Virus record (IMG/VR): IMGVR_UViG_3300042321_000162
Location: 1 to 29,225 of that record
Length of the DNA stretch: 29,225 bases
DNA from: a virus
Reading direction: 5' to 3' (one strand)
The notes under the pieces were generated by a model that saw only the letters and a list, made by a program, of their open reading frames with translations, did not search any database and had not been told where the DNA came from. The translations under genes and the position numbers were made by a program. This document shows positions 1,882-24,015 of this stretch, one piece after another. Each line of letters starts with the position of its first letter. Position 1 is the first letter of the stretch.

Positions 1882-3390
1882 TTAAAGTGCGGCGATGACA
1901 AAAGCCAATAATTCTTCGTAACGCACGCCTAAACGAGTTTTGGAAGTTCCATCTAGTGTAGTCCATGTGTCACTGCAAAACAAACCATATTTATAGGGAT
2001 CCAGACCTTCCGCAACGAAAGCATCATGGACATCTTGTGCGATCACGCCAACGTGGATTCGCGCTCCGTCGCCCTTTTCGGCGACTGAATCATTGAACTT
2101 AAACTTACGAATCAAGCCCTTGATGCGTTTGGCCACGGCCAACTCAGCAGCGCTTAGTTCTTCAATCTGTTGTTTTTCGTTGCCGTCCGATGTCTGGATT
2201 GTGCCATTAACAGCGTACACGGCTGTCCAGCGCTGTGGGCCAGTGCCAAGGCTGTAAGAAGCGTCGGCAAAAGGACGGAAAGAAACAGAATCACCCACAT
2301 ATCGGGCGGTTCCTGGATAAGTTACCCCGTCAGCCAATACAACGCCACTAACGCCGCCGACAACGGCGTATGCGCTGCTTTCACCAAAATAAGCATTACT
2401 TGCTGAAATGCCGTCAGAAGTAGCATAAGTGATGCCAAGGAATTGATTGGTATAACTGGTAAAAGATTTTTGCCCGCTGATTGTTTGATTGGCGGTTGTT
2501 GTAACAATCCCCGCGCCAGTCAAAGAACTGCTACCAGTGCCGCCGTAAGCCGTGCCAATAACTGAGCCATTCCAAGTGCCGCTAGTGACTGTGCCGCTAA
2601 CGGCCAAGTTGACGGTGTGCATACTGCTCCAGCGCTGGGATCCAGTGCCGCAACTGTAAGTTGCATCTACATAAGGGCGCCAAGAAACCGAGTCACCTAC
2701 ATAGCGGCCAGTGCCAGGAAAAGTTGAGCCACTAGCCAACACAACACCGTTAACACCGCCAATTGTGGCATACGCAGCATTTTCACCAAAGTATGCGTTA
2801 CTGCCTGATCCACCGTCCGATGTGGCATAGGTAAGACCAAGGAACTGGCTAGTGGGGCTGGTAAAAGACTTTTGGCCTGTAATGACTTGGCTGTCTGAGA
2901 TTGTGACAATGCCAGCGCCAGTTAAAGAGGTAGAGCCAGTGCCACCATTGGCCACAGGAAGCGCCGTTCCGCTGTAGGTAATAGCGATAGTGCCCGCCGT
3001 GGTGATCGGCACGCCAGAGACGCTTAAAAACGAAGGGACTGTGGCGTCAACGCTAGTGACTGTGCCTACTCCAATAGCAGCAGGGGGTGCATTGTTAAAA
3101 TAGTCAGGCGCCGACACCAAAGACGTTGGCGCGGCATTACTAAAATAGTCTGGCGAAGAAATCGGCTGCACTGGCGGCGTTAGGCCAAAGGCTTGTGCCA
3201 AGGCCAGTTCAACCAAGTTCTGATGTGATGGTGGGCCAACTTGGATGTCGTCCAGCGTAATCTGGTTGTTGCCACTACCAGTCAGCGTGAACAAATTTAA
3301 AAGAAAGCGATACCATTCACGCGAAATCAAGCCCGTGTTGGGGTCAATGAAAGGAACCCGTAAGGCGGGGATTTGCGTGACATTAAGCAT
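1882..3390 (-). CDS. Tail fibre with C-terminal S74 intramolecular chaperone
   Basis: 502 residues from the ATG at 3390, which overlaps the gp10 stop by 8 bp as in coupled translation; a longer version from 3429 would overlap more. The N-terminus (IPALRVPFIDPNTGLISREW) is of a kind seen on podovirus fibre-like proteins and may attach to the virion. The middle contains VANGGTGSTSLTGAGIVT-type repeats and a tandem duplication of about 110 residues (FLGLTYATSD...GRYVGDSVSWRP and FLGITYATSD...ARYVGDSVSFRP). The last ~102 residues begin SDGNEKQQIEEL and contain GVIAQDV, features of Peptidase_S74. In that family the domain helps fibre trimerisation and then cuts itself off next to the conserved Ser. 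Inference: a second receptor-binding protein next to the tailspike. Confidence 0.88.
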   Translation of the reverse strand: MLNVTQIPALRVPFIDPNTGLISREWYRFLLNLFTLTGSGNNQITLDDIQVGPPSHQNLVELALAQAFGLTPPVQPISSPDYFSNAAPTSLVSAPDYFNNAPPAAIGVGTVTSVDATVPSFLSVSGVPITTAGTIAITYSGTALPVANGGTGSTSLTGAGIVTISDSQVITGQKSFTSPTSQFLGLTYATSDGGSGSNAYFGENAAYATIGGVNGVVLASGSTFPGTGRYVGDSVSWRPYVDATYSCGTGSQRWSSMHTVNLAVSGTVTSGTWNGSVIGTAYGGTGSSSLTGAGIVTTTANQTISGQKSFTSYTNQFLGITYATSDGISASNAYFGESSAYAVVGGVSGVVLADGVTYPGTARYVGDSVSFRPFADASYSLGTGPQRWTAVYAVNGTIQTSDGNEKQQIEELSAAELAVAKRIKGLIRKFKFNDSVAEKGDGARIHVGVIAQDVHDAFVAEGLDPYKYGLFCSDTWTTLDGTSKTRLGVRYEELLAFVIAAL

Positions 3391-6724: not shown

Positions 6725-7933
6725 TTAACCCCAGAGGCGGCAGGCCATCTGTGGACGAATGGCGCTGTAGCCATACAAAACGTCGATACGGCAAGGCATA
6801 CGATCGTTGTTGATGTCGTACTGACGAACAACGCGCAAGCTGATACCGTTGTGAACAGCGCGGGCAGCCATGTCAACACCTTGAGGCAACAACAAGTCAG
6901 CGGTCGCAAATGTGATCGCATCTTTGTGGTAAACCAAGTTTTGAGCGTATTGGCTGGATGCTGCACCAACGAACACAACAGCTTTGCCAGAAGCAGGGAA
7001 GCTGTCCACAGTTGCCAAGGCATTTGCAGAAGTGTAGATAGGAGCAACAGTGATGTTACCTTCGCCGCTTGAACCCAAAGTCACGTTTGCAGTAGCAACG
7101 AACTGGAACAAAGAGCCAGTAGATTCACGAGTCTGTGGGTTGACAGCATAGCAGTCAGCCACGGTGAACACATCGCCAATCTTCACAGTGCCAGCGTTAC
7201 CAGCGCCAGTGATAGCGATAGTTGTAGCGCCTTGTGTAGACACAGAAGCAGACAAAGTGCCGCCAGTAGCAGTGCGTGAGCCAGTTGTGAACTGCTTGAT
7301 AGACTGAGACATGTTGACTTCGTCAAAGCCCAACACACCAGTGCCCATCATGCCGTTCTTGAACTGCTTGCTGATGGTGTCTGTAGGATTGAACAGACCC
7401 TTCATGCCTTCAACCAAACCAGCGTTAGCGGCTGGGTTGACGGTGGCGTAACGGGGGTTCATCACAGCGGCGTTTTCGTTCAGCTTCTGCTGGGCTTGGA
7501 GCAAGACCAAAGAAGTAGAAGGAGTTGTGCCAGGTGTGCCGACAGAGTTACCAATGTTGAGGTAAGCGTTAGCCACATCAGCGTCGATAGAAGATGCCAA
7601 CTGGCTGATACGAGGCTTCAACACACGCTCTGCGAAGTCATCCAATTGCATGGTCAATTCAGCAGATGTGAAGTTGACACCGATGTGCTTTTGGCTGGCA
7701 ACGGTCAAAGTGGTGAACTGTTCGTTGTCGTCTTGAACTTGCAAGGCAGCACCGTCAGTTACCAAAGCGCGGTCGGGTAAACGGATACGCAGTGTGGAGC
7801 CAATTTTAGCGCCTTCAACTGCGAAAGAATCGTCATATTGACGGTTCACGTTACGGGTGATCACAAGGTTGTTTTCAAGGATCTCTAAAGCCTTCCTTGT
7901 GATCATGTCAATCGTCAGAATACTGTTACTCAT
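6725..7933 (-). CDS. Major capsid protein, P22 coat-like
   Basis: 402 residues against 430 in P22 gp5. Family features visible: the N-terminus MSNSILTIDMITRKALEILE with NNLVITRNVNRQYDDSFA, then KIGSTLRIRLPDRALVTDGA, VNFTSAELTMQLDDFAERVL, and the end GISLRVVRQYDINNDRMPCR followed by IDVLYGYSAIRPQMACRLWG. These agree with the P22_CoatProtein family, whose HK97 fold carries an inserted I-domain; residues ~220-300 here are beta-rich and could hold that insertion. AGGAAACTATC precedes the ATG. It assembles the icosahedral shell with the scaffold encoded upstream. An HNH gene separates coat from scaffold, which is unusual for this otherwise tight pair. Confidence 0.95.
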   Translation of the reverse strand: MSNSILTIDMITRKALEILENNLVITRNVNRQYDDSFAVEGAKIGSTLRIRLPDRALVTDGAALQVQDDNEQFTTLTVASQKHIGVNFTSAELTMQLDDFAERVLKPRISQLASSIDADVANAYLNIGNSVGTPGTTPSTSLVLLQAQQKLNENAAVMNPRYATVNPAANAGLVEGMKGLFNPTDTISKQFKNGMMGTGVLGFDEVNMSQSIKQFTTGSRTATGGTLSASVSTQGATTIAITGAGNAGTVKIGDVFTVADCYAVNPQTRESTGSLFQFVATANVTLGSSGEGNITVAPIYTSANALATVDSFPASGKAVVFVGAASSQYAQNLVYHKDAITFATADLLLPQGVDMAARAVHNGISLRVVRQYDINNDRMPCRIDVLYGYSAIRPQMACRLWG

Positions 7934-16823: not shown

Positions 16824-18350
16824 TTAACTTCCCATCCAAGAGGTTGTCACCACGCTTCGATCCACATAAGTGCGGCGCTGCGTGGGTTCACGCGCCTCAC
16901 GATGCGCCACAGGGAAGGCAAAAGTCACACAGATCGCGTCTGCCGCGTCGGGTGATGCCAGCCCCCTGGCTTTCATGTCCTTTTTCGACTCCAGAAAAAT
17001 CGTACCCTTGGAGTCGGGCTTCATCATAGGTGAAATTAGATCAGTTTTAAGAAACCTGTCAAGCGGTATTGAGGCCGTTTTGAGCCAATCTTTCATTTTC
17101 CCCCACATTTCAGCCCTTTTGTTGCCGTACATGATGGGATTGGTCGATTTATTTCCAAAATTCACCCCTTTGACCTTGTATCGCTGCTCTTTTAAGCGGT
17201 CGACAATGCCAGCACCCAGCCCGCCCTCGTCGATCACGACCAGCGTGGGCTTAAATTCCTCAATCGCCTCGATCACATGCCCCACGACCGTCATGGTGTC
17301 GTCGCCCCGATGCCGCCGGATGTCCACCAAGTCCCGCCCCTGCCTGATAGCGATGACTGTCGCGTCCGCGCCAAACCGTGCGGGGTCAACGCCGATCACG
17401 ATAGGCGCTGACTGATCTTGATACTTAGGCCTTTTCATCGCCTCGTCTACTAACAAGGCGCCAATGAACTGATCGTCGCCCTCTGACGGGAACTGACCGT
17501 ACACCTCAACGTGCGCCTGTGCGCTGTCTGGGCCGTATTCGTCAATGATGCTCTGATAGACTTGCTTGTCCGTGCCCTCGACAGTCCTAGCGTCCACGAC
17601 TTTTGTTGTCCAAAAACCACGCTTGCTGTTGAATGTCTCGTAGAAGTACCCCGTGTTGCGGCGTGGGTTGCTAAACGCCATCCAGAAACGATTGGGCGTG
17701 TTCTCGGTAAAGAAACCCGCTGTCACAGCCCAAATGCTGTCGTCAATACCAGACGCCTCATCAAACACCACCAGTACACCGTCAAAGTTGTGGACACCCG
17801 CGTAAGCGTCGGGGTTTTCCGCTGACCAAAGCCGTCCCTCGACGCCCCAGTAGCGGGTGCCTTTCTTAAGATCACGCTCGACCAGTTCCGTGAGCCACTT
17901 GGCTGGCATCAGCCGTGTGGCTGAGACTTCAAACCAGTGGCTGTTAAGAGACATCGCCAGCCATTTGGTAATCTCGGCCCATGTGACAGAGCGCAGTTGT
18001 GATTCACTGTTGGCTGAGATGATGGTCGTTGACCCTATGCGGGTGGACAGCATCCATATCGTGATCCATGACACTAAGGCCGACTTACCAATACCACGGC
18101 CAGACGAGACGGCGTGGCGTAATGTGTCGAAGTCAATCTTGCCCTGGTTCTGTTTGATGTGCGCCGCGATGTCTGACAAGACCTCACGCTGCCATTTGCG
18201 TGGGCCTTTGAAATGCTCCAGTGGCGTGCCAGGTTGCCCCCAAGGAAACGCAAACATGACAAACGCCAGTGGGTTGTCTTTGATTGCCGGCGCCCATAAA
18301 CGCGCCATCAGTTCTTGTTCGTCTTCAGCGCTGTATATGGTCGATTGCAT
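16824..18350 (-). CDS. terL: Terminase large subunit (packaging ATPase-nuclease)
   Basis: 508 residues, P22 gp2 has 499. The N-terminal ATPase shows Walker A SGRGIGKS at 83-90 and Walker B VLVVFDEA at 192-199, followed by a coupling-like segment FWMAFSNPR. The C-terminal RNase H-like nuclease shows Asp322 in IGVDPARFGADATV, Asp374 in LVVIDEGGLG and Asp468/Asp471 in LASPDAADAICVTFAF. It pumps DNA into the procapsid through the portal and cuts the concatemer. The start overlaps the TerS stop by 26 bases. The packaging mode (headful or other) cannot be decided from the sequence alone, though P22-like enzymes use headful packaging. Confidence 0.96.
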   Translation of the reverse strand: MQSTIYSAEDEQELMARLWAPAIKDNPLAFVMFAFPWGQPGTPLEHFKGPRKWQREVLSDIAAHIKQNQGKIDFDTLRHAVSSGRGIGKSALVSWITIWMLSTRIGSTTIISANSESQLRSVTWAEITKWLAMSLNSHWFEVSATRLMPAKWLTELVERDLKKGTRYWGVEGRLWSAENPDAYAGVHNFDGVLVVFDEASGIDDSIWAVTAGFFTENTPNRFWMAFSNPRRNTGYFYETFNSKRGFWTTKVVDARTVEGTDKQVYQSIIDEYGPDSAQAHVEVYGQFPSEGDDQFIGALLVDEAMKRPKYQDQSAPIVIGVDPARFGADATVIAIRQGRDLVDIRRHRGDDTMTVVGHVIEAIEEFKPTLVVIDEGGLGAGIVDRLKEQRYKVKGVNFGNKSTNPIMYGNKRAEMWGKMKDWLKTASIPLDRFLKTDLISPMMKPDSKGTIFLESKKDMKARGLASPDAADAICVTFAFPVAHREAREPTQRRTYVDRSVVTTSWMGS

Positions 18351-18762
18351 GCGTGGGTGCCTCGATTATTTCTATGTCGGTCACATCTAACACTCTCTTC
18401 TGCGCCTCGGCCAGTGCGCCTGTGATGGATATGCGCTGGTCGACTTCGACAGATATGGCCTGCTTGGCCACCCAGCCGTGTTGATGTTTGAGGATCTCAA
18501 GCGCTGACTTAGCGTCGCCTTGGAGCGCTGCGCTGCGCAAGACGTTGGCCATCTCTATCTCAGCGTCTGCTTTGCCCTTTTGCGCGGCCATCTCGACCAC
18601 GGGGTCAAGTTGCGTGAGTTGTCGGTATTCGGTGGGCAACATGCCTGCGGCGAGTGCCAAGGCGTCGCCTTTGAGGCCAAGTTTGGCTGCGTCATACACC
18701 GCCTTCAAACGCGACTCTGTCGCTTCGACCTTGCGCGGTGTAAATGGTATTGAATAGAACAT
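18325..18762 (-). CDS. terS: Terminase small subunit
   Basis: 145 residues from the ATG at 18762, which has GGAG five bases upstream; a longer frame to 18921 enters the repeat region and is rejected. The protein is helical: VEATESRLKAVYDAAKLGLK and GDALALAAGMLPTEYRQL form a probable helix-turn-helix, followed by EMAAQKGKADAEIEMANVL, which fits the oligomer core, and a basic/variable tail. By family TerS rings recognise the pac site and stimulate TerL. It is the first gene of the late operon and directly borders the repeat region, so a pac site could lie in or near its gene. Confidence 0.85.
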   Translation of the reverse strand: MFYSIPFTPRKVEATESRLKAVYDAAKLGLKGDALALAAGMLPTEYRQLTQLDPVVEMAAQKGKADAEIEMANVLRSAALQGDAKSALEILKHQHGWVAKQAISVEVDQRISITGALAEAQKRVLDVTDIEIIEAPTHAIDHIQR

Positions 18763-18791
18763 AAGCTCTCCATGCTTTGCACGTGGCTGGG

Positions 18792-18820: not shown

Positions 18821-18910
18821 ATTGTTTGCGAGTCCACCGTTTTCACTAGGCCCTTGCCGCCGGCCCTTGGGGTACCCCTTCTGGCATTGTGGGTATTTTG
18901 CCATCGGCCC

Positions 18911-19135
18911 GGCGCCGGCATGGCCAGCGGCCACCGTGCGCATGCTGCAAGCTGGCGCCGGCATGGCCATCGTTTAGGTCATTTGGGTCATTTGGGTCAT
19001 GGTTTTTTATTTGTAAGCTGGCGCCAGCATGGCCATGCTTTGGGTCATTTGGGTCATTGTTTTTTGCATGACCTAAATGACCTAAACGCAAAGATCTGGC
19101 GCCCAGGCTTTGGGTCATTTGGGTCATTTTGTCAT
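18911..19135. repeat. GC-rich modules joined to 9-bp repeats
   Basis: GGCGCC(G/A)GCATGGCCA occurs at 18911-18926, 18954-18969 and 19020-19035, and a degenerate fourth start (GGCGCCCAGGC) lies near 19098. From the second copy on, each is followed after a few bases by two or three 9-bp repeats and a T-rich tract, giving imperfect modules with spacings of 66 and 78 bp. GGCGCC and TGGCCA are themselves palindromes, so the modules can fold or bind dimers. Confidence 0.75.
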
Positions 19136-19353
19136 GCCAGAAAAATTGGTGCGGGAAGGCGCGAGCGTTCGCGGGTGAGATTTCCTAGATACTAACCCTA
19201 CTGGCTATATATACAGTATATAAATTATTGATGTTATCTATAAACCATGACCCAAATGACCCAAAGCATAGTAAAACCCAGTATTTGCGCCGCTTTGCGA
19301 TTGGGTCATGCCAGCCCAAATCCATAACCTAACCCTAACCCAAATGACCCAAA
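18973..19353. repeat. Iteron-like array of TTTGGGTCA in a 717-bp intergenic region
   Basis: The region 18763-19479 has no credible gene. It holds a 9-bp unit TTT(G/A)GGTCA in clusters: three direct copies at 18973-18999, two at 19039-19056, two inverted at 19069-19086, two direct at 19109-19126, two inverted at 19248-19265, a variant at 19300-19308, and two inverted at 19336-19353. Neighbouring copies abut exactly with a 9-bp period. The array lies between divergent gene blocks next to AT-rich DNA. Arrays of this type serve as initiator-binding iterons of replication origins or as multi-site operators; which applies here is not known. Confidence 0.85.
19204..19245. other. AT-rich segment with a 15-bp dyad (possible unwinding element)
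   Basis: The stretch is almost free of G and C between two repeat clusters. It includes the perfect dyad TATATAC-A-GTATATA at 19208-19222. Together with the flanking iterons this is the usual layout of an origin's unwinding element; the dyad could equally be a protein site. Confidence 0.5.
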
Positions 19354-19355
19354 AT

Positions 19356-19372
19356 TATGCAATTTTTGCATA
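19356..19372. promoter_or_regulatory. Dyad upstream of the early promoter (candidate operator)
   Basis: TATGCAA-TTT-TTGCATA is a perfect inverted repeat of 7-bp arms. It begins three bases after the last 9-bp repeat and ends 24 bp before the -35 box of the early promoter. A related half site (TTTTTTGCAAAT) follows at 19380. Position suggests binding of an activator or repressor. Confidence 0.5.
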
Positions 19373-19396
19373 TTGTCACTTTTTTGCAAATAGGTG

Positions 19397-19424
19397 TTGA
19401 CAGTGTACGAAAATGCCTTACAAT
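19397..19424 (+). promoter_or_regulatory. Strong sigma70-type early promoter
   Basis: A perfect TTGACA at 19397-19402, a 16-bp spacer and TACAAT at 19419-19424 predict a start near 19431, about 49 bases before the first early gene. It would drive the plus-strand cassette using host RNA polymerase. Confidence 0.8.
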
Positions 19425-19430
19425 AGCGTC

Positions 19431-19451
19431 ACTGGGTCCGAAAAACCCAGT
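19431..19451 (+). promoter_or_regulatory. Hairpin at the predicted 5' end of the early mRNA
   Basis: ACTGGGT and ACCCAGT pair around a CCGAAAA loop, beginning at the predicted transcription start. A stem at the very 5' end can stabilise mRNA or be bound by a regulator. It lies well before the ribosome site at 19469-19473. Confidence 0.5.
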
Positions 19452-19479
19452 AAAACCTAAACTAACCTAAAGGCAAAAC

Positions 19480-19668
19480 ATGACTAAATCTGAAATTCGC
19501 GAGTTGCAAATTATCACAAAATACCGCGCTGCTGGCTTAGGCCCTGACTACGTCGCGCGCGCTATATCTGCACTCATTCGCGCGGCCCGTTCTAAGAAAA
19601 GCGCCGACGCGCTTCGCGCGCATGCCCTGGCATTCGGCGTTACAAATCACCCTGAATTCATTGTCTAA
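19480..19668 (+). CDS. First early gene, 62-residue basic helical protein (unknown)
   Basis: MTKSEIRELQIITKYRAAGL followed by GPDYVARAISALIRAARSKK and a His/Phe-containing end. It is small, basic and mostly helical, with no domain I can name. TAAAGG lies seven bases before the ATG within a 14-bp sequence that recurs before the next gene. It is the first gene after the strong early promoter and has its own terminator immediately behind it, so its mRNA should be abundant very early. That position is typical of host-takeover proteins, which is an inference. Confidence 0.7.
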   Translation: MTKSEIRELQIITKYRAAGLGPDYVARAISALIRAARSKKSADALRAHALAFGVTNHPEFIV

Positions 19669-19676
19669 ATCAAACC

Positions 19677-19699
19677 GGCCAGCAAAGCTGGCCTTTATT
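19677..19699 (+). terminator. Rho-independent terminator after the first early gene
   Basis: GGCCAGC-AAA-GCTGGCC followed by TTTATT. The stem is perfect over 7 bp. It lies 8 bp after the 62-aa gene and would let only part of the transcription reach the rest of the early cassette unless antitermination occurs. Confidence 0.8.
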
Positions 19700-19836: not shown

Positions 19837-20496
19837 ATGCAAGCACATCTAACCCTTAAAAGCGCAAACGTCAAAACCGGCCCGATTCCCGTTAGCACTA
19901 CAGAACGCGACTCTTGCCCCAGTGATTGCAGCATGCGCGGCGAATGTTACGCCGCCAGTGGTCCGCTGGCCTTGCATTGGGCCGCCGTTAGCGATAAAAA
20001 ACGCGGTACATCGTGGGCCGAATTTTGCAGCACAATCGACGCGTTACCCGCTGGGCAATTGTGGCGCCATAACCAAGCCGGTGATTTGCCTCAGCAAAAC
20101 GGGACAATCGACGCCGTAAAGCTGGGCGAACTAGTGGCCGCGAATGCTGGCAAACGTGGCTTCACTTATTCGCATCATCGCGACGCGGCCAGCATTGCAT
20201 GGATTCGCCACGCGAATGCTTGGGGCTTTACCGTCAATTTATCGGCTAATGATCTAATCGACGCCGATTATTTGGCCGACCAAAACGCCGGGCCCGTCGT
20301 CGTTGTTTTGCCCAGCACACAAAACGAAAACACAAAAACCCCAGCCGGCCGCCCGGTGGTGGTTTGCCCAGCAACCCAGCGCGACGATGTATCGTGCGCG
20401 ACGTGTCAATTGTGTCAACGTCAACGGTCCACAATTGTAGGATTCCCAGCCCACGGCGCGCGCCATCGCGTCATTAACTTGAGGTTAGCAAAATGA
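19837..20496 (+). CDS. DUF7227-like cysteine-rich protein, possible Fe-S protein
   Basis: 219 residues. The start KSANVKTGPIPVSTTERDSC and the parts LWRHNQAGDLP, KRGFTYSHH, GFTVNLSAND and VVVCPATQRDDVSCATCQLC match a conserved phage/bacterial family that I place near DUF7227. Two cysteine groups stand out, C27-x3-C31-x5-C37 near the N-terminus and C187-x2-C190-x2-C193 near the C-terminus, together with C177. They could hold Fe-S or zinc. The alternating strand/helix pattern suggests a barrel-like fold, loosely like the Gp37/Gp68 (DUF5131) proteins. It is the largest gene of the early cassette; GGGG lies before the ATG. The reaction is unknown. Confidence 0.7.
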   Translation: MQAHLTLKSANVKTGPIPVSTTERDSCPSDCSMRGECYAASGPLALHWAAVSDKKRGTSWAEFCSTIDALPAGQLWRHNQAGDLPQQNGTIDAVKLGELVAANAGKRGFTYSHHRDAASIAWIRHANAWGFTVNLSANDLIDADYLADQNAGPVVVVLPSTQNENTKTPAGRPVVVCPATQRDDVSCATCQLCQRQRSTIVGFPAHGARHRVINLRLAK

Positions 20497-21103: not shown

Positions 21104-21424
21104 ATGTTAAAAATGAGATTAGGACGGACAATTTATATTGTCAACGATGACCACGCCGGCGCGGTAATGAATGAACATGCTAAATGCACCGGAAAACATA
21201 AAATTGTCAAAAGTAAAGGCCCTGAGCGGCGCTATTTTCCGACATATTTTTATTCCACAGCGGACTATGTGACGCGTTATTACGCGCTCAATAGTGGCCG
21301 TGGCCACCAGGGTAAGGGCGCGCCTTATGGTAGTGAAAACACGTTAACCGGCTTTTATGAAAACCTAAATGAAGCGCCGACCACCTATTACACGGGAGAG
21401 GATCTATATGAAAACGAAGGATAA
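21104..21424 (+). CDS. 106-residue protein of unknown function
   Basis: MLKMRLGRTIYIVNDDHAGA, then CTGKHKIVKSKGPERRYFPT and a Tyr-rich end (YFYSTADYVTRYYALNSGRG). The ATG directly follows the previous stop; a second ATG three codons on is possible. The N-terminal part is basic with mixed strands, the C-terminal part is acidic and Tyr-rich. No domain is recognised. It overlaps the next gene by 17 bases. Confidence 0.6.
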   Translation: MLKMRLGRTIYIVNDDHAGAVMNEHAKCTGKHKIVKSKGPERRYFPTYFYSTADYVTRYYALNSGRGHQGKGAPYGSENTLTGFYENLNEAPTTYYTGEDLYENEG

Positions 21425-21686: not shown

Positions 21687-21713
21687 AAGGCCCCAGCGAT
21701 GGGGCCTTTTTTT
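21687..21713 (+). terminator. Strong terminator between convergent early and replication genes
   Basis: AAGGCCCC-AGCGAT-GGGGCCTT followed by TTTTT on the plus strand. The 8-bp stem and U run form a good intrinsic terminator for the early cassette. Read on the minus strand the same stem ends the primase-helicase operon but lacks a full U run there. Confidence 0.85.
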
Positions 21714-24015
21714 ATTTCACCAGGCGCACGGCCTGGGGCGCTGGTAGATCCTCGACCATGCGGCGCAAATCTGACTTGCTCATGTTGACCATGTCAGGCG
21801 CGCAAAACAAGTGTTTTTTGCTGGGGCAATCACCCGACGCGACGCGGCCCAGGTCAACCCACCCCGCCTCTTTAAGCGCATGCAATAACGCCGGCTGGGG
21901 GACCTTCACGCCAGCGGGCGCGGCGCCGGCCACACGGTCACAAAGCGCATGGAAGGGCGACGCCACCACGCCTTTAGAAAATTCGCCCAGGCGCCCACGC
22001 ATCAGTTCCACTAAGTAACTCTCGGCCATGCTCATACCATGCTCGACAAGATTTAACTTAAATTCTGTCATGGCCGGCGCGGCGCCAGGGTTGAAGGCCG
22101 AAACATCACGGGCATGCAGCCAGGCGCCCACGGCCTCAAAACCTCCAGACCTATACCAAGCCCACATGCGCGCGGCGGCGTCGGTGCCCATACGCGGCGC
22201 ATGGGACCACACGCAAAACCACCGGCGATCCTGGGAATCTAAACTAATCGGCACGGGGTCATTGGAAAACGCCAACACGAACACGCGGTTAGCCATCTGG
22301 TAAGGGTGCAGGCCCTTACGGTTAACTGTCAACATTTCAGGCGGCGCGGCAATGATGGGCTTTAGCTTATTCGCTAATGCTCTCCTTTCCTTGGCGTCGG
22401 GTTCTTTCAACTCATTCAGAATCAAGATCTCGGACTCAAGGGCATAGCCAAATTGGCTGCTCATAGTGTCATTGTCCAGCAGGCCACGGTTTTTAAGGTG
22501 AGGGCCACACACGGCCCAAATAAACGGCGCCCACATCGTATCTTTGCCGGACCCTTGGTCACCACCGTGCAAAATCGCGTGATTGATCTTGATCTCAGGG
22601 CGCTGAATTTTAAAAGCCATCACGTTGAAAATATGGTCCAACTCGCGCTGATCAGGCACCAGCGTTTTGCAGTGGTCCAGCCACGGTGTAATGTCGCCGG
22701 CGGCCACTGGGGGCCTGGCGTCGCGCCAGCGGTTACCGTACAGATCACCATCGCGCGCCACAATCACGGACTCGCCAGCAGCGTAAGTGATGCCCACAAG
22801 CGCTTTGGCGCCGTAGTCCTGGCGGTTCTCGTCAAAGCAAATAGAAGCCTCAATTTTAGGGCGCTTGCCGTGAATTGAATTGCAGGGGATATGACGGAAT
22901 AACGCGTTGAAGGTGCTGCGGGAGATCTCGCGGCGGTCTTGCATGTCAAAGTAAGACTCATCGTCCTGAATGTACGCAAAGCGCTCATACCACTGCGTTT
23001 TTTGGACCCGTCCCAACTCTTTGCGCTCAACTTCAGCGATCACGGCAGCGGCGGCGTCAGGGAATGCTTCAGTTGGTTTAATTTTAGACAGCGCTTGGTC
23101 CATGGCCAAGGCGAGCAACTCATCACGCAAACCAGGCGCATGCTTGGGGCCGCCATTGTCAGATACCCACTCAAGAAATTTATTAGAATCAAAATCAATG
23201 CAATGACTATGCAGGCATCGATAGGCGCGATTAGCGGGCATGTAACGGCCCTCTGGATTGCCGTCGGTATGCTCGGCATGGTTTGGGCAGATCACGCCGG
23301 CCCAGCCTTCATTATTGGGCTTAGACAGCAAGGCGCCATGGCCAGACAGCCACGCCATCACATCGTCAGCGCCATCGTCCGACAAACGGATTGGGCGCAC
23401 GCCGACCGAATCAGCAGGCGCAGGGACAACACCAAACGCGTCGCAGATTTCCTTAAGAGTAAATTCACGCTTTGGCTCAAAATCCACCAACTTAGCGGCA
23501 AAATTATCACGCCCTGGCTTTAAGTTGATCGAGCCAGGCAAACGGAAATTGCGCACGGCGTTGACGGCGCCCTTGTCAGTAAAGCCAGCTTCAGCGATTG
23601 ATTTGATAGCGGCAGCAAAATCTGCTTTTGTAGGTTGATCAGAGAAAGCATAACCCCACTGGAACGAACCTGGCGAGGTTTCAATTTTCCATGTCGGTTC
23701 TAGCGGCGGTATGTTGGGCGCCTTCTCAGGGTCCCCCACATCGTCCAGCACCATTACAAGGACGTACTCACAGCATGCCACGCTGGCGCTTGGATATCCA
23801 TCTTTAAAACGGTCAACGATAAAGCTGGCCGTGTTGCCGTAAATTGCCCATTCGGGTTTTGTTTTGCTTGTGGGCAGCATGGCCGGCCATGTGCATTTGA
23901 TAGCGCCGTCAGGAAAAAATTGCATTTGGCCATTTTTAAGCTGGGGCTTTTGGCGCACGATTAGCGCAGTCTCACCCTCGGGAGCCAAAGAAATTAAAAA
24001 ATCAAGAAAATTCAT
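21712..24015 (-). CDS. Primase-helicase: AEP-type primase fused to SF3 helicase
   Basis: 767 residues. N-terminal part (about 1-190) resembles RepB-like/archaeo-eukaryotic primases: VLVMVLDDVGDP at 86-96 with the probable metal acidic pair, TSPGSFQWGYAF at 113-124 and AVRNFRLPGSINLKP at 153-167. Residues 238-285 form a possible zinc site (CPNHAEHT...CLHSHC). The C-terminal SF3/DUF5906-like helicase has Walker A GGDQGSGKDT at 484-493, Walker B EILILNELKEPD at 529-540, a sensor segment FVLAFSND at 579-586 and arginines in SQDRRW. It should prime and unwind phage DNA. The start overlaps the polymerase stop by four bases (ATGA). It is the last gene of the replication operon. Confidence 0.88.
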   Translation of the reverse strand: MNFLDFLISLAPEGETALIVRQKPQLKNGQMQFFPDGAIKCTWPAMLPTSKTKPEWAIYGNTASFIVDRFKDGYPSASVACCEYVLVMVLDDVGDPEKAPNIPPLEPTWKIETSPGSFQWGYAFSDQPTKADFAAAIKSIAEAGFTDKGAVNAVRNFRLPGSINLKPGRDNFAAKLVDFEPKREFTLKEICDAFGVVPAPADSVGVRPIRLSDDGADDVMAWLSGHGALLSKPNNEGWAGVICPNHAEHTDGNPEGRYMPANRAYRCLHSHCIDFDSNKFLEWVSDNGGPKHAPGLRDELLALAMDQALSKIKPTEAFPDAAAAVIAEVERKELGRVQKTQWYERFAYIQDDESYFDMQDRREISRSTFNALFRHIPCNSIHGKRPKIEASICFDENRQDYGAKALVGITYAAGESVIVARDGDLYGNRWRDARPPVAAGDITPWLDHCKTLVPDQRELDHIFNVMAFKIQRPEIKINHAILHGGDQGSGKDTMWAPFIWAVCGPHLKNRGLLDNDTMSSQFGYALESEILILNELKEPDAKERRALANKLKPIIAAPPEMLTVNRKGLHPYQMANRVFVLAFSNDPVPISLDSQDRRWFCVWSHAPRMGTDAAARMWAWYRSGGFEAVGAWLHARDVSAFNPGAAPAMTEFKLNLVEHGMSMAESYLVELMRGRLGEFSKGVVASPFHALCDRVAGAAPAGVKVPQPALLHALKEAGWVDLGRVASGDCPSKKHLFCAPDMVNMSKSDLRRMVEDLPAPQAVRLVK

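Follow-up and report, generated by a model that had tools for sequence, protein, structure and literature searches.

In phage P4, a single polypeptide, the alpha protein, contains a primase, an SF3-type helicase and, for binding the origin repeats, a winged-helix domain (PMC4234260, citing Ziegelin and Lanka 1995, Yeo et al. 2002). In SaPI Rep or PriRep1 and in SCCmec Cch2, an initiator helicase uses its C-terminal domain to recognise short iterons downstream of its own gene. The origins of lambda, read by the O protein, and those of iteron plasmids follow a related plan, in which copies of the initiator site flank an AT-rich unwinding region. Their iterons are about 17-22 bp long, and the initiator is not the helicase.

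The locus described here lies on a virus contig of 29,225 bp from IMG/VR, called the window below and taken at its full length. It carries an array of 9-bp words that is very probably a phage replication origin of the iteron type, read by the phage's own primase-helicase, as judged from comparison of related sequences. Like P4 alpha, this enzyme combines primase and helicase in one polypeptide and is accompanied by repeats, and its C-terminal domain is predicted to be winged-helix-like. The P4 protein differs in having a TOPRIM-type primase and in belonging to a satellite, whereas here many apparently orthogonal words occur within one tailed-phage family. SaPI5 PriRep1 is among the fold matches of the window's primase-helicase, but the iterons described here are found 2.4 kb past the gene, beyond oppositely oriented early genes, in a lytic-type phage genome, as exact 9-bp tandem words and with another head sequence (the head being the C-terminal domain). 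Compared with lambda and the iteron plasmids, the words are shorter, at 9 bp, and no homologue of O, RepA or a loader is found near the array in the window, in agreement with the initial annotation, which had seen no RepA/O-type initiator nearby.

Twelve exact copies of TTTRGGTCA are present in the window, all within positions 18973-19353 (381 bp) and none elsewhere, while 100 dinucleotide shuffles gave a window-wide mean of 0.63 copies and a largest value of 4. The initial annotation had claimed at least 12 copies of TTT(G/A)GGTCA, arranged in blocks of two or three with an exact 9-bp period and in both orientations. This description holds: imperfect copies accompany the twelve exact ones, and six blocks of alternating orientation could be mapped, within which the period is exactly 9 bp (Table 1). 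One-mismatch copies lie within the array at 19300 (+) and 19336 (-), and a further one at 19463 (-) is placed slightly past its edge. Outside 18900-19480, the window contains just 8 copies when up to one mismatch is allowed, and the even spread of the 9-mer that the annotation had proposed to check for is not seen, exact copies being confined to the array. The AT-rich dyad claimed at this place was also recovered, in a 62-bp segment directly before block 5 that ranks in the top 0.16% of the window's 62-mers by A+T content. Many short direct repeats, above the chance level, are found at one site of the replicon, and they adjoin an AT-rich element that is a putative unwinding element. Rfam gave no match at the array.

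Table 1. Positions in the window of the array, the features that flank it and the primase-helicase gene.
Feature	Position	Strand	Description
terS-like gene	18325..18768	-	bounds the array on the left; assigned by position only
Iteron block 1	18973..18999	+	three tandem TTTRGGTCA, 9-bp period
Iteron block 2	19039..19056	+	two tandem TTTGGGTCA
Iteron block 3	19069..19086	-	two tandem TTTAGGTCA, inverted
Iteron block 4	19109..19126	+	tandem pair of TTTGGGTCA; delimits the central gap on the left
AT-rich centre	19186..19247		74% A+T, dyad TATATATA; putative DNA unwinding element
Iteron block 5	19248..19265	-	tandem pair of TTTGGGTCA, inverted; delimits the central gap on the right
Lone imperfect iteron copy	19300..19308	+	ATTGGGTCA
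Iteron block 6	19336..19353	-	inverted pair, one exact and one imperfect copy
Early promoter	19397..19424	+	TTGACA-16-TACAAT, precedes the 62-aa gene
First early gene, 62 aa	19480..19668	+	bounds the array on the right
Primase-helicase	21712..24015	-	767 aa, DUF5906 helicase domain; proposed initiator
C-terminal domain, residues 660-767	21712..22038	-	predicted winged-helix-like
Word-switching stretch, residues 722-744	21784..21852	-	discriminating columns

To the left of the array, the gene in terS position, terL and the portal gene are all on the minus strand, and the packaging and structural genes run leftward. To its right, the plus strand carries small early genes; beyond them, the primase-helicase, a family-A polymerase and an exonuclease are encoded on the minus strand. 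The early promoter is of the sigma-70 type, with 11 of 12 consensus matches, and stands 43 bp to the right of the array. Because of this promoter, the region may also act as a master control region, as the initial annotation had suggested alongside an origin; the origin part of that suggestion has been strengthened by the co-variation between the iteron word and the C-terminal head of the primase-helicase across three main motif classes. A terminator-like hairpin, GGCCAGCAAAGCTGGCC, with a T-rich tail follows directly 3' of the 62-aa gene at 19677-19693. The early operon also encodes a DUF7227 / phrog_2554 protein (19837-20496), which was found in class A loci only in the tested set. A 106-aa protein encoded at 21104-21424 has no Pfam or PHROG match. 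Its family (p106) evolves fast and has two N-terminal subtypes, EHAKCTGKHK or MDKPPKAK, with a common MSTADYV..Y..LN core. PADLOC returned no match.

Some 200 relatives were compared. The initial annotation had asked whether relatives lose the array; they keep it between terS and the early genes, but with another word. Three main classes were distinguished: class A with TTTRGGTCA, class B with TGTGGACAA and class C with TGTGRGTCA. Relatives whose primase is 83-88% identical to that of the window have, at the same place, an array of TTGTCCACA/TGTGGACAA with a 9-bp period. The tandem 18-mer is present in more than 120 viral-contig stretches, many of them with 8-13 copies in an unchanged block order. 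Eight near-complete contigs of 36-38 kb with the class A word have a single cluster (three also carry stray single copies), and the class B records likewise have one cluster of copies per genome. Tandem words are spaced by 9 in classes A and B and by 10 or 9 in class C, and inverted neighbours are spaced by about 20-21 or 29-30, in agreement between classes. The median gap between the facing blocks is 109 bp in class A, 108 bp in class B and 89 bp in class C, and its richest 50 bp reach a median of 74-78% A+T across the three classes.

Distant relatives have other words in a like layout, for example TGTNRGTCA, and repeats of GTTTAYRTAAAC occur in the GenBank phage MW202483, where an ORF near the primase (7083-7379) is annotated as a DnaA-like helix-turn-helix protein. 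When distant relatives were read by eye, the head GRLASHD went with a GGGTCAAATTGTCA-like word, GRLASSEYST (L492) with a TTGGCAA-like word and KSSEYQ with a TWKGGGTCA-like word. Several class B relatives of this distant set carry few exact copies of the word, and four loci (L509, L519, L523 and L552) with GRIKSR.FD or similar B-type heads have no clear array. A second repeat family, the dyad GTGAGCACTCAC (TTAGTGAGCACTCACTTAC), occurs on the terS side of the array in five loci of one clade (L186, L189, L191, L453 and L551) and is possibly the operator of another regulator. The tandem 9-mer was also seen scattered in bacterial sequences (L206, L212, L216, L223 and others), where one Chitinophagales MAG (JAFLBO) has it on many contigs and Saprospiraceae MAGs carry it as well; these are probably unrelated repeats. 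The phage collection searched held no close isolate of this phage group.

The change of word is matched by a change in the primase-helicase head. Residues 726, 728 and 731 distinguish all 74 loci of class A from all 29 of class B, the class A head being A726/G728/P731 and the class B head K726/R728/D731, and residues 722, 725, 736 and 744 nearly do so. In the same 74 and 29 loci, no column of TerS or TerL scores above 0.49 on a 0-1 scale. Of 127 dereplicated loci, 124 have a head class that agrees with the word (57/57 in class A, 35/35 in class B, 32/35 in class C); two of the three class C exceptions are degenerate C arrays, as read by eye, and the third, L015, is a true mismatch. A 128th dereplicated locus, L191, fits no class rule, with a KSRAHD head and two class B copies. 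Since class C consists largely of a single clade, the primase column counts for A versus C and B versus C are inflated. Changes were also counted on a primase tree built with the head left out, on which the word changed 8 times and the head residues 8 and 8 times. Of the supported independent contrasts, 6 of 6 agree when residue 726 is compared with the first half of the word, and 6 of 6 when residue 731 is compared with the second half (sign test p 0.031 for each). An out-of-sample set, chosen by the class B DNA word and by no other criterion, gave 29 new readable heads of the form KSR..D/E; all have K726 and R728, with D731 in 27 and E in the other 2.

Among the 14 families tested, the primase alone is both widespread and switching at fully discriminating columns. 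In the three-class test, TerS, TerL, the polymerase, a 213-aa protein and the exonuclease all stay at or below 0.60. The small protein p84, encoded beside the primase, separates A from B and A from C, and p106 separates A from B but is lacking in most loci of classes B and C. Outside class A, the 62-aa, 53-aa, 75-aa and DUF7227 proteins are seldom or never found. The binders named in the initial annotation have accordingly fared differently: the primase-helicase is favoured by the head-word co-variation, whereas the 62-aa first early protein is encoded by 23 loci of class A, 3 of class B and 0 of class C, and the 53-aa HTH-like protein by 4 of class A and 2 of class B, which speaks against both. 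Co-variation points to the C-terminal domain as the determinant of the cognate iteron.

Whole-protein matches to DUF5906 and to the phage DNA-primase PHROG indicate a primase and an SF3/D5-type helicase in one chain. Fold searches with the full model place the NrS-1 primase-helicase first (PDB 6k9c, 6k9e, 6lrb; fold E 1.8e-18), and also list SaPI5 PriRep1 and poxvirus D5/E5. Sequence profiles match NrS-1 as well (E 4.6e-10). Both enzymes have a DUF5906-type helicase, and the helicase part is the best match, but the sequence match spans the helicase region (profile 459-657) and not the head. The AlphaFold2 model of the C-terminal 108 residues has a pLDDT of 88 and predicts helices at 688-697 and 707-716, loop-joined strands at 720-725 and 734-738, and then a helix. 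The switching residues (722-731) sit in the predicted beta-hairpin, and the helix preceding it (ALLHALKEAGW) is nearly invariant. In this model the head looks like a winged helix: Foldseek with the head alone gave mostly winged-helix proteins as best matches, none of them significant and none with an E-value below 0.17, and a sequence search with the head found no match to any solved chain, the P4 domain included.

Other readers of the array have to be weighed against the primase-helicase. Packaging sites often adjoin terS, and here the terS gene is about 200 bp from an array that is rich in orientations and unique in each genome, so a pac or cos site read by the neighbouring small terminase was considered. 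The best TerS columns, at 0.50-0.56 against 1.00 for the primase, separate the motif classes poorly, and TerS identity to the window tracks the deep clade and not the word. The near-complete contigs start at scattered distances of about 7 to 36 kb from the array, and therefore no fixed genome end is seen there. With a terminase that does not co-vary and contig ends that scatter, a packaging site is very unlikely and was set aside. An operator of an early regulator (the 62-aa, 53-aa, p106 or 71-aa protein upstream of the primase) serving divergent promoters would suit the early promoter close by, and columns that tell A from B exist in p106 and p84 too. At first sight p106 even looked perfect; it was dropped as the binder, being absent from many loci of every class and having subtypes that break the rule (L040, L118, L197). 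The p84 protein does not separate B from C (0.50), clade 2 has in its position a different protein of 66-67 aa common to A and B phages, and the 62-aa and 53-aa proteins have the restricted distribution given above, which leaves the operator reading only a small chance.

The class B boxes TTGTCCACA are one base off the E. coli DnaA box TTATCCACA, and the exact box occurs 17 times in 35 class B arrays, so that host DnaA might be thought to read the array. The exact box is found 0 times in 57 class A and 0 times in 34 class C regions, although these have the same geometry, and TTTRGGTCA does not fit the box TTATNCACA of an oriC-type origin, which was accordingly rejected. TTATCCACA differs from the class B word by a single base, and the class B matrix shows exchanges at other positions about as often; variation of the phage's own word by one base explains the DnaA-like look at least as well. 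As the word also tracks a phage protein, reading by DnaA is extremely unlikely. Finally, the association of head and word could be one of linkage, with one block, comprising the array, the 3' end of the primase gene and what lies between them, exchanged whole and the real reader being another factor. The head lies at the gene end closest to the array, so linkage could contribute to the association, and the gene content between them differs between classes. The columns that discriminate A from B nevertheless end at residue 744, while residues 745-767 and the small genes are nearer the array, and the association recurs in separate clades. In L160, a class B array stands beside a 62-aa gene 97% identical to that of the window; the block has therefore been broken by recombination with the head-word match intact. 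Linkage as the whole explanation is improbable, and an origin read by the primase-helicase remains the preferred reading.

Some loci depart from the simple correspondence. L015, a 4.6-kb contig, has a head of class C and an array of class A; its left part is class A-like and its primase class C-like, with a breakpoint at 3193-3221, and it may be a chimeric contig or a real recombinant. In L503, a B-type head goes with an array of mixed B/C type. L108 and L492 have almost identical head cores and different repeats, which shows that among distant relatives the wing core is not enough to set the word. GC skew in six near-complete genomes had an extreme opposite the array in two and none in the others, without a consistent origin signal.

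By analogy, an origin read by the primase-helicase most likely works like those of P4 alpha or the SaPI Rep systems. Each 9-bp word would be bound by one C-terminal winged-helix-like head, and the hairpin loop (the wing, residues about 722-733) would select the bases. The left (+) and right (-) blocks face each other across an AT-rich gap of about 110-120 bp, and since they lie on either side of this centre, two oppositely oriented hexamers could load. These hexamers would melt the AT-rich centre and start both forks, with the primase part priming and the phage family-A polymerase extending. We infer in this way the binding, hexamer loading, melting, initiation, direction of replication and base reading by the wing. 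A more specific proposal, which we hold at about even chances, is that the beta-hairpin wing and not the nearly invariant recognition helix holds a two-part DNA-reading code, with residues 726/728 for the first half of the word and 731 for the second, and that repeated joint switches of word and wing have produced mutually orthogonal origin-initiator pairs within one phage family. For the first half, A.G would go with TTTRG, K.R with TGTGG and M.R with TGTNR; for the second half, D731 would go with ACAA and other residues with GTCA.

It is difficult to follow how the heads of helicase initiators evolve new specificity, since the protein has to change in step with dozens of sites. The phages described here provide a natural series in which a few residues and a whole array have been switched about eight times while the enzyme is otherwise similar. 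Their word and head pairs would form a natural key-and-lock series for the recognition of an origin by the starter of replication, and the related phages offer potentially orthogonal phage origins. At the same time, a probable origin and its initiator have been placed for a large, mostly uncultured group of aquatic-type (freshwater-type) phages.
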